Of a stretch of 53,876 nucleotides of DNA, positions 128 to 53,818 are shown piece by piece. Numbering within the stretch: the stretch's first letter is position 1; each line of letters starts with the position of its first letter. Where the stretch lies: IMG/VR virus record IMGVR_UViG_3300044640_001642, positions 1 through 53,876 of that record; one strand, 5' to 3'. This DNA is from a virus. Under the pieces are notes generated by a model that did no database searches, had not been told where the DNA came from, and saw nothing but the letters and a program-made list of their open reading frames with translations. The position numbers were made by a program, and so were the translations under genes.

Positions 128-192
128 TTTTTTATTCTCTACAAAGATAGTTATAACTTATTTAATAACCAAATTTATCTTTATTTTTTTTG

Positions 193-264
193 TGGAGGTA
201 CACGGTAACGCTCCGTGTTCTGTGATTTGCAAAACCACTGTAATTGCTTTTATACGATACCCCC
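193..264 (-). tRNA. tRNA-Ala(UGC), atypical T loop
   Basis: Acceptor GGGGGTA pairs with TACCTCC. The anticodon stem GTGGT/ATCAC closes the loop TTTGCAA, giving anticodon TGC. The T arm is CACGG/CCGTG with loop AGCGTTA, which lacks the usual TTC motif. Cys (GCA) was considered, but it would break the stem, and a clear tRNA-Cys lies at 3498-3567. Confidence 0.7.
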
Positions 265-2295: not shown

Positions 2296-2492
2296 AAAAG
2301 TTTAACAACCCCGCCCTCGGGTCGTAGCGGGCTACAATGGGAATTCCGGAATTGGTCGTGTTCCTCACCGGCGTACTAGTCCTTATCTATCCTTTACCAT
2401 ATTTCTATGGTGCTACTATTGGGAGGTCACCCCTATCAACACGCTAGTCCATTAATTTTTTAGAGTATGGACACCCCGGTTGTTAAACTTTT
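2296..2492 (-). ncRNA. structured RNA element A (15-bp terminal stem)
   Basis: A 197-nt non-coding element is closed by a perfect 15-bp inverted repeat (AAAAGTTTAACAACC at 2296-2310, complement at 2478-2492). On the minus strand it ends in a U run. Internal helices are visible: 2447-2452/2467-2472 (GTCCAT/ATGGAC), 2357-2362/2438-2443 (CGTGTT/AACACG), 2397-2401/2406-2410 (CCATA/TATGG) and 2310-2314/2327-2331 (CCCGC/GCGGG). It is more GC-rich than its flanks. It does not resemble a tRNA, tmRNA, SRP RNA or RNase P RNA that I can recognise. Confidence 0.6.
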
Positions 2493-2496
2493 AATT

Positions 2497-2868
2497 TTAC
2501 CATCCTGAATCTGTTAAATCATTTTTGAATTTAACCCACATATGTGTGTTTGGGATATCTTCAAAATTAGATTCTAACAAATCAATTTCTCCTTCTGCTG
2601 ACCAAAAATTATCTAAAATTTCATCATCTGATAACCCCTCTATATCATCAAAATCATAGTCAAGATGATTATCAATTAAATCTGTATCAAAATCACTTTG
2701 TGTCGGGTAATTATCCACAAACTTAATGAAAAATGGGTTATTGGTTTTTTTATACCATTTTTTAGCAATTGAGTCCACTTTTTCGTGTTTTCCAATTGTG
2801 TTCTTTTCATCTGAGTGCATTTCAAGGATTCTACTTTTTTCTTCTTCAGAAATTATAAATTTTTTCAT
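2497..2868 (-). CDS. leader-bearing acidic protein, 123 aa
   Basis: It starts MKKFIISEEEKSRILEMH, so it carries the EEK-type leader with a possible ILE cut site at residues 14-16. The body is strongly acidic (DTDLIDNHLDYDFDDIEG). The stop lies 4 nt from structured element A and a TATTTATAA motif lies 12 nt upstream. No family is recognised. Packaging into the head is inferred from the leader only. Confidence 0.8.
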   Translation of the reverse strand: MKKFIISEEEKSRILEMHSDEKNTIGKHEKVDSIAKKWYKKTNNPFFIKFVDNYPTQSDFDTDLIDNHLDYDFDDIEGLSDDEILDNFWSAEGEIDLLESNFEDIPNTHMWVKFKNDLTDSGW

Positions 2869-2889: not shown

Positions 2890-2893
2890 TAAA

Positions 2894-3044
2894 AAAAACA
2901 GACAGAATGATTATCCGATATTTACGTCTTAGGGGACTAGACGGGCATCATACCCGTGTTTACCCTCGGCGGTCTCTTGGTTTGGTTGATTATTCCGAAC
3001 CTCACATCCATTTTACCACTGACTTAAGTTATAGGTCTGTTTTT
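2894..3044 (-). ncRNA. structured RNA element B (10-bp terminal stem)
   Basis: A 151-nt element bounded by AAAAACAGAC (2894-2903) and GTCTGTTTTT (3035-3044). Inside is a stable ACGGG/CCCGT hairpin (2941-2957) enclosed by a weaker GGGAC/GTCTC helix. No convincing coding frame is present. The strand is inferred from neighbouring tRNAs. Confidence 0.5.
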
Positions 3045-3192: not shown

Positions 3193-3263
3193 CACGTGAT
3201 TGAGGAATTGAACCCCACCGTCGAGAATTTGGAGTTCTGACCGACACCTTGTCTGTATCACGT
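3193..3263 (-). tRNA. tRNA-Trp(CCA)
   Basis: Acceptor ACGTGAT/ATCACGT with discriminator G, anticodon arm AGAA-CTCCAAA-TTCT with anticodon CCA, and T arm TGGGG/CCTCA with loop TTCAATT. The anticodon stem has one outer C-C mismatch. Confidence 0.85.
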
Positions 3264-3268
3264 ATTTT

Positions 3269-30179: not shown

Positions 30180-30539
30180 ATGAAATTATTTTTAGACGAT
30201 AACCGAAAACCTTACGATGTATTTAGAAACACTATTGACCCAATTTATGAAAATAATAATGAATGGGTAATAGTTAAGGACTATTTAGAATTTATTGATA
30301 CTATTTTAAAACACGGATTACCTGAAGTAATATCGTTTGACCATGATTTATCTCAAAATCATTATTTACCGGAGAACCAAACAAATATTAATTATGATAC
30401 CATAAAAGATAGAACCGGATATGATGCGGGATTATGGTTAATAGGGTATTGTAGAATGAATTCTCTTGAGTTACCTAAAATTAAAGTTCATTCTGCTAAT
30501 ATTGAAGGTAAAAAAAATATTGAGAGATTATTTTTCTGA
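30180..30539 (+). CDS. cREC-type receiver-like protein, 119 aa
   Basis: MKLFLDDNRKPYDVF, then VISFDHDLSQNH and DRTGYDAGLWLIGYC, match the cyclic-phosphate-processing receiver-like family that occurs in phage RNA-processing contexts. The acidic LDD and FDHDL residues are intact. The ATG at 30180 is chosen from the promoter position; the upstream in-frame ATG lies inside the promoter. Confidence 0.8.
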   Translation: MKLFLDDNRKPYDVFRNTIDPIYENNNEWVIVKDYLEFIDTILKHGLPEVISFDHDLSQNHYLPENQTNINYDTIKDRTGYDAGLWLIGYCRMNSLELPKIKVHSANIEGKKNIERLFF

Positions 30540-31109
30540 AACAAATGCTCTTAACTTCACTTTGTTCCAATTTTTAAAATCCTCACCATTATCACCAAGT
30601 TTTAATATGGACATTGTTCTATGCCATCCTTCAACTATTTCATACTTACCTTGATTATCTTTAAGTACAATTATCGGTTCGTTTTTACCTGTTGAGATGG
30701 CTAGTTCTTTTTGTGTTTCCATTCTTTCTTTATCGTCCTTAACAAAATAAGCATCCACTTCACCAAATTCTCTTTCAATGAATGCGTTTATATTATTTTC
30801 AACAAAATCTTCAGGATTAACATTAATTATCCGTAATTTCCAAGGACCTTTTAGATACTCATAAATCTTTTTACCTAAAAAAGGTATTGGGTCTCCATGA
30901 TATTGTCCCATCACAGTTTTATAACTCTCTTCATTACCACATATAACATTTGTAACAAATTCCTTTAAGATATATTCCGGAGTATTTGGAAATTCTTTTT
31001 TAAATCTATTATAAAATGATTTACAAACTGATGATGTTGGGTTAGATAAAGGAATTGATTGGATATCCTCTAATAATCTATATTGTTTTTCTGTTATTAT
31101 TAATTTCAT
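30528..31109 (-). CDS. leader-bearing ParB/Srx-like protein, 193 aa
   Basis: The leader MKLIITEKQYRLLEDIQ contains LLE (residue 14) as a possible cut site. The C-terminal third (NEPIIVLKDNQGKYEIVEGWHRTMSILKLG) matches the ParB/sulfiredoxin nuclease fold with its G-W-H-R core. A packaged DNA- or nucleotide-acting enzyme is inferred. It follows the 31111 metalloprotease gene by 1 nt. Confidence 0.8.
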   Translation of the reverse strand: MKLIITEKQYRLLEDIQSIPLSNPTSSVCKSFYNRFKKEFPNTPEYILKEFVTNVICGNEESYKTVMGQYHGDPIPFLGKKIYEYLKGPWKLRIINVNPEDFVENNINAFIEREFGEVDAYFVKDDKERMETQKELAISTGKNEPIIVLKDNQGKYEIVEGWHRTMSILKLGDNGEDFKNWNKVKLRAFVSEK

Positions 31110-31110
31110 A

Positions 31111-31569
31111 TTACATTCTTTCTTTTATATCGTCCAACATACTCTCATCAAACTCAACTCCGTGTCTTTCTTGGAAATGGTCTAATAATGTACGAACAGA
31201 TTCGTAATATCCTTTATGTTGTAATAATAGGTAAGCACCTAAATCAGCTTCCAACTCATCTTTCGCATCTCTTGGACCATCGTGAGATAATAATACGTGA
31301 GTAACCTCGTGAGCTTCAATAAATTTTAATATACTTTTAGCGTCTGGTTGTCCTTCCAATATTTGCCCATCAATAATAATTAAATCACTACCGGGAACCA
31401 TAAACCCAAAACCATATTCCTCAAAGTATTCTTTAACTTGTTCATATAATGGGTCATCTTCAAATACAACAACAACCGTAACACCATCTAAGAATTCACT
31501 ATTATATTCTATTTGGGTATCCTCTTTTATTATTTTTTTATACTGAGATTCTGTAATAATTAATTTCAT
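31111..31569 (-). CDS. leader-bearing HExxH metalloprotease, 152 aa
   Basis: The ATG at 31569 gives MKLIITESQYKKIIKEDTQ, with IKE (residues 14-16) followed by D. The catalytic part has AHEVTHVLLSH (H87, E88, H91) and KDELEADLGAYLLL, typical of small ImmA/M78-like zinc proteases. It is coupled to the ParB-like gene. If packaged, it could cleave a host repressor or defence protein on entry; that is inference. Confidence 0.83.
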   Translation of the reverse strand: MKLIITESQYKKIIKEDTQIEYNSEFLDGVTVVVVFEDDPLYEQVKEYFEEYGFGFMVPGSDLIIIDGQILEGQPDAKSILKFIEAHEVTHVLLSHDGPRDAKDELEADLGAYLLLQHKGYYESVRTLLDHFQERHGVEFDESMLDDIKERM

Positions 31570-31572
31570 ATT

Positions 31573-31580
31573 GATAAATA
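31573..31580 (-). promoter_or_regulatory. candidate late promoter TATTTATC
   Basis: Lies 3 nt upstream of the ATG at 31569. Confidence 0.45.
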
Positions 31581-31618
31581 CTTTAAATTTTCGTATCATT
31601 AGGCAAATATATAAAATT

Positions 31619-32317
31619 ATGATAAAAAACACAACACCTTACATCGGAAAACTTAGATTAAAGTTTGAAAAATATCCAGAATACACCGGAAAAGATAAAT
31701 TAAACAAAATTCACTTAAATTTGGGTTTTACAAAACTTGTTTCAAGAATTACACCAGTTAGAACATCTGCCGGATGGGTTGTTAATCCCGAATGCGTTTA
31801 TAAAATTCAAAAATATACTGGTGGAATCATTAAAAATCATACATTTGGGGATGAAAATGAACATGAATTACCTAATTCATTTTTATCAAAGACGGGTGAA
31901 TATATTGGAGATATTGAGATAGGTTGGTGGTATTATCAAAACAATATGGTGGTGAATGATGAATACCCCCACGGAGTTGCAACAATTATTGAATACAATG
32001 ATATGTATCCCGACCAACAATTTATTGCCGGATATCACGGATACACCCACAGAGGGGGACAAACATTTAAAATTGGTGATAGATTATTTGACCCATCTTA
32101 TAAACCAAAAGAAGAGGACTACGAAGAGTGGGAATGGGTTGGCTGGAAACAAAAATACGACAAATTATTTGATGAAAGTGATGACTTAGATAAAAAATGG
32201 ATGGTAAAATCCGGAATATCTTATGTAATGCCTTATACTAAACGAGGTCATAAAGTAATTGAGAATAATCCTGAAGCTTTACAAGCAGCAATCAATATGT
32301 CGAAGGACTTATCTTAA
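31619..32317 (+). CDS. hypothetical protein, 232 aa
   Basis: MIKNTTPYIGKLRLKFEKYP begins a soluble alpha/beta protein with a Gly/His-rich central part (IAGYHGYTHRGGQTFKIGD). The start is moved to 31619 because the longer frame overlaps the divergent promoter. No family is recognised. Confidence 0.75.
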   Translation: MIKNTTPYIGKLRLKFEKYPEYTGKDKLNKIHLNLGFTKLVSRITPVRTSAGWVVNPECVYKIQKYTGGIIKNHTFGDENEHELPNSFLSKTGEYIGDIEIGWWYYQNNMVVNDEYPHGVATIIEYNDMYPDQQFIAGYHGYTHRGGQTFKIGDRLFDPSYKPKEEDYEEWEWVGWKQKYDKLFDESDDLDKKWMVKSGISYVMPYTKRGHKVIENNPEALQAAINMSKDLS

Positions 32318-35685: not shown

Positions 35686-35994
35686 ATGAAAATAATTATT
35701 ACTGAAGACCAATATGAAAAAATTGGTAGATACGAAACCTGTCCAACTCAAGTAACATTTCACGTTTATAAACGAATTGTTGGCCAATGGAAACAAAGAA
35801 CAAGATGTGTTAGTGATGAATTTTATGATTTAATACAAAAATACCAAAGACATAAATTTGATGATGGGTATGAAATGGATGAAAAATTAAAAGAATTAAT
35901 TCAAGAATACTATTATAAAACGTATTATTTAACACCGGACGAATATACAATAGAATACGTCACTGGTAACACAATATCAATTAAAACAAAATAA
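35686..35994 (+). CDS. ITEDQY-leader protein, 102 aa
   Basis: MKIIITEDQYEKIGRY has the leader core but no [I/L]-x-E site right after it. The remainder is basic and aromatic. It is coupled to the 35448 gene. Confidence 0.77.
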   Translation: MKIIITEDQYEKIGRYETCPTQVTFHVYKRIVGQWKQRTRCVSDEFYDLIQKYQRHKFDDGYEMDEKLKELIQEYYYKTYYLTPDEYTIEYVTGNTISIKTK

Positions 35995-39752: not shown

Positions 39753-40355
39753 ATGTCTAAGAAAATTTTAATAACAGAAGAAGATAAAAACCACATTAAA
39801 TTATTATATAATATTAATGAACAGGGGGCCGATGATATTTTTAAAGGATTAACCGATAAAATATCCAATATGTTAAAAACAGGCAAGTTTAATGATGATG
39901 ACGATAACACTTCAAATAACATAACAACAACTGATGACGATTTTTATAAATCAGTTTTAAAATGTTTAGGTGCTGAACCAACTAAAAATAATATGTTATT
40001 TATGTACGCTTGGAGACAAGCTGAAGGTGGTAAAGCAAAAAACAACCCATTCAATACTACTATGAAAATGCCTGGAGCAACAAATATTAGTAATACTTCC
40101 GTAGGTGTTAAAAATTATTCAACTCCGGAAGAAGGTATTGAAGCAACCTGTAAAACTCTTAAAAATGGTAGAGATAAATACGGATATTATAATATTATCG
40201 ATGGACTAAAAAATGATGTAGGTTTATCTCAATTATCCGATGCAGTTATAAATTCAAAATGGGGTACTAAAGATTTATTACGTAAAGTAACTCAAGGATA
40301 TGTTTCCGGTCATTCCCCAAAACCACACCCAATCAATAAATCAGAAATCGCTTAA
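39753..40355 (+). CDS. leader-bearing lysozyme/transglycosylase-like protein, 200 aa
   Basis: MSKKILITEEDKNHIKLLYN-INEQ gives INE (residues 21-23) followed by Q. The C-terminal half (FMYAWRQAEGG..NNPFNTTMKMPGA..GVKNYSTPEEGIEATCKTLK) matches a lysozyme-like fold found in phage and bacterial muralytic proteins, with Glu of QAEGG the likely acid. A packaged wall-degrading enzyme used at entry is inferred. Confidence 0.82.
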   Translation: MSKKILITEEDKNHIKLLYNINEQGADDIFKGLTDKISNMLKTGKFNDDDDNTSNNITTTDDDFYKSVLKCLGAEPTKNNMLFMYAWRQAEGGKAKNNPFNTTMKMPGATNISNTSVGVKNYSTPEEGIEATCKTLKNGRDKYGYYNIIDGLKNDVGLSQLSDAVINSKWGTKDLLRKVTQGYVSGHSPKPHPINKSEIA

Positions 40356-52688: not shown

Positions 52689-52716
52689 AAAACCCCCAAT
52701 TATTGTTGGGGGTTTT
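52689..52716. terminator. intrinsic terminator
   Basis: AAAACCCCCAA/TTGGGGGTTTT hairpin between convergent genes. Confidence 0.83.
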
Positions 52717-53818
52717 CATCTTTTATTAAGGAATATATTTTACTTAGTTTTTTCATCATCTTAAGACAAATGTTTCTTGTTTGATTAATTTCATATCTAA
52801 AGAATTTTTCATAATCAGTACCAAATCTAGTTATTTTATTTAAATATTTATCAAAATACCTTTGTTTTGCACCTCTGAATCCAAACATATTTTCCATAAA
52901 GTCGTTAGTTAAAAAATCTTTCATTAATCCTCCTCTCCACTGTAATAGTGTTTTAAAATATTGTTGTAATGTTAAATCAACCATTTCATCGTCGGTTACA
53001 TTATCCGGATAATCCATATCATTATCATCAAAAGTTTGTTTTATTTGGGGGATAATTAATTTTAATTCTTCCCTCAACCCTTCATAAGTTAATTCGGAAC
53101 CCTCTTTATACGCAACATAGACTCTGTGGTTTGTTATGAACTTATAAAAATCTTTCTTTGTAATCCCACTCTCTTCTAAGGCGGCATATAACTCAGTTGC
53201 TCTTACCAAGTTTTCTGTGGTGTGAGCAAAATACATATAATTTAACAATTTATTTAATGGGGGTATATTTCCGAACCTTCTTTGAGAACCAATATGATAT
53301 TCAACTCTTTCAGGTGTTTTAACTATTGGGTTAACAGATTCATCATATGCGTGTTTTAGTTCGTGAGCCAAACTTGAAACCATAACAACTCTTTCTTTAT
53401 TAAACTCATCAATAACGTCCTGAGTGGTTACACCATAATCAACGGCAAAAGTGATTGATAACACCACATTATTTATGTCTTGAGTTCTTTCATAATTAAA
53501 TTTAGCGTTTATCTCAACCTTCCCGTGGTGGGTCATACCATTTACCAATACTTTAGGTTTTTTAACCCCATCAAAACTATAATCATTAATATCTTCAATG
53601 TTGAAGGATAATTTTATCTTCTTAAATTTATAATCGTTAATTTGGAAATCACCTTTTAATATAATTGTTTTTTTAAATTGAGTTTGTAAATCAGATGTTG
53701 GTTTAAGCTCCATCATCATTTTGTCAAATAATTGTTGTGCAACTGAAACAATGTTAGTTGGAACACCTACGGCTTCATTCAATTTAGTATATTGAGATTC
53801 TTTAATTCTAATTTTCAT
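52700..53818 (-). CDS. leader-bearing HExxH metalloprotease, 372 aa
   Basis: MKIRIKESQYTKLNEAVG carries the ITESQY-type leader with LNE (residues 13-15) followed by A. The zinc site is SSLAHELKHAYDE (H152, E153, H156), and AHTTENLVRATELYAA about 60 residues later could provide the third ligand. The long C-terminal region is helical. Largest of four HExxH proteins in the window. Packaging and injection are inferred. Confidence 0.83.
   Translation of the reverse strand: MKIRIKESQYTKLNEAVGVPTNIVSVAQQLFDKMMMELKPTSDLQTQFKKTIILKGDFQINDYKFKKIKLSFNIEDINDYSFDGVKKPKVLVNGMTHHGKVEINAKFNYERTQDINNVVLSITFAVDYGVTTQDVIDEFNKERVVMVSSLAHELKHAYDESVNPIVKTPERVEYHIGSQRRFGNIPPLNKLLNYMYFAHTTENLVRATELYAALEESGITKKDFYKFITNHRVYVAYKEGSELTYEGLREELKLIIPQIKQTFDDNDMDYPDNVTDDEMVDLTLQQYFKTLLQWRGGLMKDFLTNDFMENMFGFRGAKQRYFDKYLNKITRFGTDYEKFFRYEINQTRNICLKMMKKLSKIYSLIKDENPQQ

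Follow-up and report, generated by a model that had tools for sequence, protein, structure and literature searches.

A conserved folded RNA carried in the tRNA arrays of very large T4-like phages

What is encoded by a GC-rich island that is closed by a perfect inverted repeat and lies between two short protein genes of a phage: a terminator, a leader, a mobile DNA element or a gene for an RNA? The question arises from a 197-nt element on the minus strand at 2296-2492 of the window, that is, the whole stretch of 53,876 nucleotides analysed here (IMG/VR record IMGVR_UViG_3300044640_001642, positions 1 to 53,876). The initial annotation, made from this sequence alone, described a structured element with a perfect 15-bp terminal repeat, GC-richer than its surroundings, placed between two leader-bearing genes, devoid of any plausible gene and assignable to no recognised RNA class. 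The arms of the repeat, 2296-2310 and 2478-2492, indeed match each other at 100%, and the GC content of the element is 45.7%, against 28% in each flank and 31% in the whole window. The bordering genes, 2497-2868 and 1861-2271, do both start with MKKF(V/I)I(T/S)EEEK leaders; their presence is however incidental, the RNA belonging to a tRNA array and the neighbours varying among phages. No conserved ORF was found inside 2296-2492, and indels of 1, 15 and 16 nt among the homologues exclude a coding role, in line with the absence of a plausible gene noted at first.

Folding of the single sequence was not significant on either strand (minus strand, z -1.58, with 14 of 200 shuffles folding as well; plus strand, z -2.14, with 7 of 200, not clearly better than shuffled), thus the window alone could not establish a structure. 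Searches of Rfam with the group A element (groups are defined below) returned no match at the gathering score and none credible below it, and those with representatives of all three groups gave only chance matches and tRNAs, whether the threshold was the gathering score or a lax one. Covariation among homologues, together with this absence of Rfam matches, supports the original description of a structured element outside the recognised classes: the element is an apparently undescribed folded RNA, not protein-coding, present in several families of very large phages. A search of the accessible literature found no description of it, which is not proof of its being undescribed.

Besides the window, the element was found in 40 IMG/VR contigs, falling into three sequence groups (28 in group A, 6 in group B and 6 in group C) with mean identities of 50-59% between groups and 87-99% within them. 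Of the 27 contigs returned when IMG/VR was scanned for an exact 16-mer, 26 carry the element at high identity, and a second pattern added one contig; the downstream gene, used as a lead, gave two contigs with a diverged copy, core patterns then gave more, and the last pattern brought in the six contigs of group C. Homologues scored between 139 and 252 bits with the covariance model, and a single copy per genome was present in the large records searched, whose sizes reach 322 kb. The carriers are uncultured phages known as contigs only, and they represent few independent lineages, namely three groups with few sub-lineages. Seven other loci (L033, L143, L144, L146, L174, L175 and L180) were discarded as chance pattern matches, as was a 13.6-bit match in Flavobacterium phage immuto, located within a coding gene. 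The pattern scan of genome contigs gave seven matches, none containing the element according to nhmmer, and the five inspected look unrelated; no element was found in INPHARED or among the named phages, and a model search of 295 Bacteroidia genomes, run with stricter filters and with no positive control among them, gave no match.

The whole RNA, about 197 nt in the group A type (2296-2492, minus strand), is supported by the homologues and the covariance model matches, and its ends are joined by the closing helix P1, formed by AAAAGUUUAACAACC (2478-2492, 5' strand) and GGUUGUUAAACUUUU (2296-2310, 3' strand). P1 measures 13-16 bp across the alignment, and its two strands have changed in a compensatory manner in groups B and C: the letters are AACAACC/GGUUGUU in group A, AACACCU/AGGUGUU in most of group B and AAAUAAAAUARCAAUC/GAUUGUUAUUUUAUUU in group C. 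When the homologues were examined for loss of the terminal repeat or lack of covariation, either of which would speak against a structured element, covariation proved strong and the terminal helix was kept in all 23 distinct sequences, with 8 of 10 pairs formed in the worst case.

Next to the 5' strand of P1 lies an H-type pseudoknot. Its stem S1 pairs GGGGU (2473-2477) with ACUCU (2462-2466), and occurs as GGGGU/ACUCU, AGAGU/ACUCU, UGGUU/AACCA and AAGGU/ACCUU; stem S2 pairs UCCAU (2467-2471) with AUGGA (2448-2452), and occurs as UCCAU/AUGGA, UCUGU/ACAGA, CCUAU/AUAGG and GUUUC/GAAAC. The one-sequence fold of the initial annotation was right in part only: the GUCCAU/AUGGAC hairpin that it drew is in reality S2 of a pseudoknot, and it did not include the long-range helix P3. 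The pseudoknot is followed by the segment GUGUUGAUAG (2433-2442), identical in 23 of 23 distinct sequences, and by hairpin H3, GGGGUGACCUCCC (2421-2433), whose stem is GGG/CCC in groups A and C and GUG/CAC or CGC in group B. P3, which pairs GUAGC (2412-2416) with GCUAC (2324-2328), appears as GUAGC/GCUAC, UUGUAAY/RUUACAA or GUGAC/GUCAC; it is 100% paired, with both-side changes in three of five pairs. In the 3' part, a local hairpin of GUAG with CUAC was rejected because P3 uses the CUAC and covaries, and the GUAG varies to GUUG.

P3 encloses a variable hairpin, a single-stranded core and a second hairpin. The variable hairpin H4 (ACCAUA-GAAA-UAUGGU, 2396-2411) has one A-U/G-C double change, and is missing in three loci (L012, L023 and L145) and in groups B and C. 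The core, AAAGGAUAGAUAAGGACUAGUACG (24 nt, 2372-2395), is nearly invariant in all three groups. Hairpin P5 (CCGG UGA GG AACACGA CC AAUU CCGG, 2346-2371) covaries both in its outer stem (CCGG/CCGG, CCUG/CAGG and GUGG/CCAC) and in its inner 2-bp stem (GG/CC, CG/CG, CU/AG, CC/GG and CA/UG). The invariant GUGUU could possibly pair with AACAC of the P5 loop, over 5 bp in groups A and B and 4 bp in group C, a candidate tertiary contact that shows no variation. A further helix, P6, between GCCC (2329-2332) and GGGC (2313-2316), is a weak candidate for the fold: it is kept in groups A and C with G-U changes only, and one or two of its pairs are broken in group B.

Two alignments were used to count these changes. 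Among 20 distinct sequences (A4; helices P1, S1, S2, H4 and P5), 98.4% of the cells were paired and both-side changes occurred in 14 of 36 pairs; none of 500 shuffles reached as high, and slid registers gave at most three both-side pairs. A4 was aligned to the covariance model R1, whose structure includes P1, S2, H4 and P5, so the counts for those helices lean towards R1; S1 is not part of the model. The second alignment (A5; 23 distinct sequences; P1, P3 and P6) was a plain MAFFT alignment, in which 98.3% of the cells were paired, a level reached by 0 of 500 shuffles, and both-side changes were seen in 7 of 18 pairs, a count reached by 2 of 500. Anchored extraction recovered each helix in all three groups with differing letters. 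Judged from the aligned sequences, compensatory changes preserve the fold in P1, the 5' H-type pseudoknot, P3 and P5.

As to the genomic setting, in most loci ARAGORN finds tRNAs around the element and on its strand: group A copies usually lie between tRNA-Cys/Trp and tRNA-Glu, and those of group C between tRNA-Arg(UCU) and tRNA-Ser(GCU), with 0-4 nt on either side, a spacing that leaves no room for a promoter or a terminator of its own. No tRNA was detected on the fetched stretch of two loci, L137 (14 kb) and L141 (3.4 kb); a wider fetch around the latter (L162) revealed a tRNA array 2.8 kb upstream. The genes that follow are unrelated to each other, being MKKF leader proteins, a 114-aa MKNFKFLMDK protein, a 78-aa protein or tRNA-Ser. 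A gene begins 15-23 nt past the element in several loci of group A, and in some loci the following gene is 141 to more than 500 nt away. The unrelated downstream frames and the position in the array, on the tRNA strand, indicate that the element behaves like an additional array gene and not like a leader.

These comparisons established the fold of the RNA, its conservation in three groups, its single copy, its tRNA-array setting and its independence from downstream genes. On these grounds we consider it probable that the element encodes, as a stand-alone gene, a structured and stable RNA of some 200 nt, transcribed with the tRNA array and released by the tRNA-processing enzymes. Transcription would take in the element together with the phage tRNAs, and the enzymes acting on the neighbouring tRNAs would excise it; P1 would keep both ends of the RNA together, and the pseudoknot, H3 and the P3 domain, with the invariant core and P5, would form a compact fold inside it. 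With less certainty, the RNA may act in trans during infection, its invariant single-stranded core binding a protein or some component of translation or RNA processing. It is conceivable, if rather unlikely, that the element represents a new class of pseudoknotted RNAs of T4-like jumbo phages, catalytic or protein-recruiting and moving with tRNA genes, which would serve the takeover of translation or of tRNA maturation, or block host defences that target tRNAs.

The other readings of the locus fare less well. Catalysis, as a ribozyme that cleaves itself or acts on the tRNA array and so helps tRNA release, is improbable: the compact pseudoknotted fold and the invariant single-stranded core inside a tRNA array would suit it, but no Rfam ribozyme or RNase P RNA matches groups A, B or C, and the ends, where self-cleavage might be expected, vary freely between groups. 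Moreover, the RNase P protein RnpA (PF00825) was absent from 8 phage records, with the control positive in 10 of 14 genomes; such a protein would support an RNase P RNA but is not required for one. While the data leave the ribozyme reading simply unsupported, they argue down the remaining alternatives. Control of the next gene by a cis-acting leader or riboswitch, to which we give a somewhat lower probability still, would explain the group A loci with a gene 15-23 nt after the element, and in group A the 5' pseudoknot with its A-rich third loop, CUCUAAAAAACUAA, resembles preQ1-I riboswitches. This resemblance was dropped because groups B and C do not keep the A-rich loop; besides, the element is much larger than preQ1-I, matches no Rfam riboswitch in any of the three groups and is not tied to a downstream gene, the following genes being unrelated or distant, with no fixed class among them.

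The terminator-like U end of the minus strand was also part of the initial annotation, and a transcription terminator or insulator, with the inverted repeat as its stem, might account for it. The U-run after the repeat is real in the window (U-tract 2293-2299) and is kept in groups A and B, but it is absent in group C, where a tRNA follows directly. An intrinsic terminator was thus rejected, its stem and U-tract not being kept across the homologues; the two strands of the stem are, furthermore, about 170 nt apart, and the interior of P1 is strongly conserved, so that this reading is very unlikely. Taken together, the differing downstream genes and the U-tail missing from group C indicate that the element is neither a leader nor a terminator. 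Just as improbable is a DNA element, whether a miniature transposon bounded by terminal repeats or a site of recombination: it would fit the perfect terminal inverted repeats and the group B copy found in a phage whose terminase belongs to the group A clade, but not the one copy per genome in a constant tRNA-array setting, nor the compensatory changes of the internal helices, nor terminal repeats that differ between groups and yet stay paired.

The nearest counterparts of the element in setting are rnaC and rnaD of T4, which are likewise small RNAs of a T4-like phage, encoded within a cluster of tRNAs and on the same strand as these. They are two adjacent stable RNAs of 139 and 119 nt (species 1 and 2), and to our knowledge their function is unknown as well. 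They are not homologous to the element in sequence or structure: model R1, run with filters off on T4 69500-73500, found nothing convincing (best hit 10.3 bits over 42 nt, outside rnaC/rnaD), and rnaC ends in a tRNA-like T-arm, which the element lacks. Homology to GOLLD and ROOL is likewise absent, comparable as they are: neither gave an Rfam match in groups A, B and C, and ROOL RNAs are much larger than the ~200-nt element. GOLLD, which like the element is phage-borne and near tRNAs, is a structured, pseudoknotted RNA of phages and prophages, often found near tRNA islands, with many members above 800 nt and of unknown function (PMC12286853). ROOL is a phage and prophage RNA with pseudoknots that also occurs near tRNA islands (PMC12286853). 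Ro60/TROVE (PF05731), the partner of Y RNAs, was absent from 8 phage records. As to retron ncRNAs, with their terminal a1/a2 repeats, the downstream ORFs seen were short proteins or tRNAs. The tRNA arrays of phages are usually taken to contain nothing but tRNA genes; large T4-like phages add to them at least one, and probably two, strongly conserved structured RNAs. The consensus fold offers exact compensatory pairs for testing and a model with which transcriptomes can be searched for the RNA. A family of such sequence diversity also gives a way into the question posed by rnaC/rnaD, namely the role of small RNAs within the tRNA clusters of phages.

The distribution of the element among its carriers, whose terminases are T4-like, points to exchange. 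The terminases of groups A and C are about 44% identical, and that of G049, a group B phage, is about 27-30% identical to both and shares 60% identity with the terminase of Flavobacterium phage immuto, from which the element is absent. G048 carries a group B copy, yet its terminase is 79-83% identical to those of the group A phages G001, G002 and G004; the copies of G048 and G049 are 93-95% identical, whereas their terminases share only about 27%. Such near-identical copies in phages with distant terminases suggest that the element has been exchanged between phage families as a small module, much as tRNAs are. Over the 20-kb stretches of G048 and G049 (loci L163 and L162), the other alignments are mostly short and tRNA-sized (78-97%), plus one HNH gene region (72%); this points to a trade in parts of the arrays, too, between phage families. 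When the first 20 kb of the window are compared with the group C locus, the element is the only stretch alike at the DNA level.

A second candidate RNA of group A phages, RNA2, emerged from the comparison of relatives as a conserved non-coding stretch of ~150 nt (2893-3043, minus strand), closed by AAACAGAC/GUCUGUUU and followed by U's. It also occurs in L011 (57-215), L013, L017, L022, L029, L031, L034 and L010, and in several relatives it lies directly upstream of the element, while in the window a 123-aa MKKFIISEEE gene separates the two. RNA2 had no match in Rfam, and its single-sequence fold (z -0.39) was not significant.

Other small genes were noticed in the same region of the window. 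On the minus strand at 1714-1788, a 24-codon frame, MQTLNILLTIAGTEGRDTTWKSMV, conserved in the relatives compared, is preceded by a TTGACA/TATATT-like promoter and followed by a strong intrinsic terminator; it is likely, from these sequence features, to be a monocistronic micropeptide gene within the tRNA array. A tRNA-Ala(UGC)-like gene at ~187-260 (minus strand), missed by ARAGORN, has the non-standard T-loop CACGG-AGCGUUA-CCGUG; the same form is present in L019, L022, L023 and L131, while in L014 and L017 the T-arm at this position is more ordinary. A tRNA-like gene at 3193-3264 (minus strand), with anticodon CCA and a short D-arm, is also missed by ARAGORN and is weakly matched by the Rfam tRNA-Sec model; it is probably a tRNA-Trp, a gene that ARAGORN places at the corresponding position in several relatives. 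Finally, a leader of the MKK(F/L)IITE(E/S)(E/Q) type is found on many unrelated proteins of the window (2497-2868, 1861-2271, 30528-31109, 31111-31632, 35686-35994, 39753-40355 and 52700-53818), which suggests that it is an N-terminal signal for targeting or processing in these phages.
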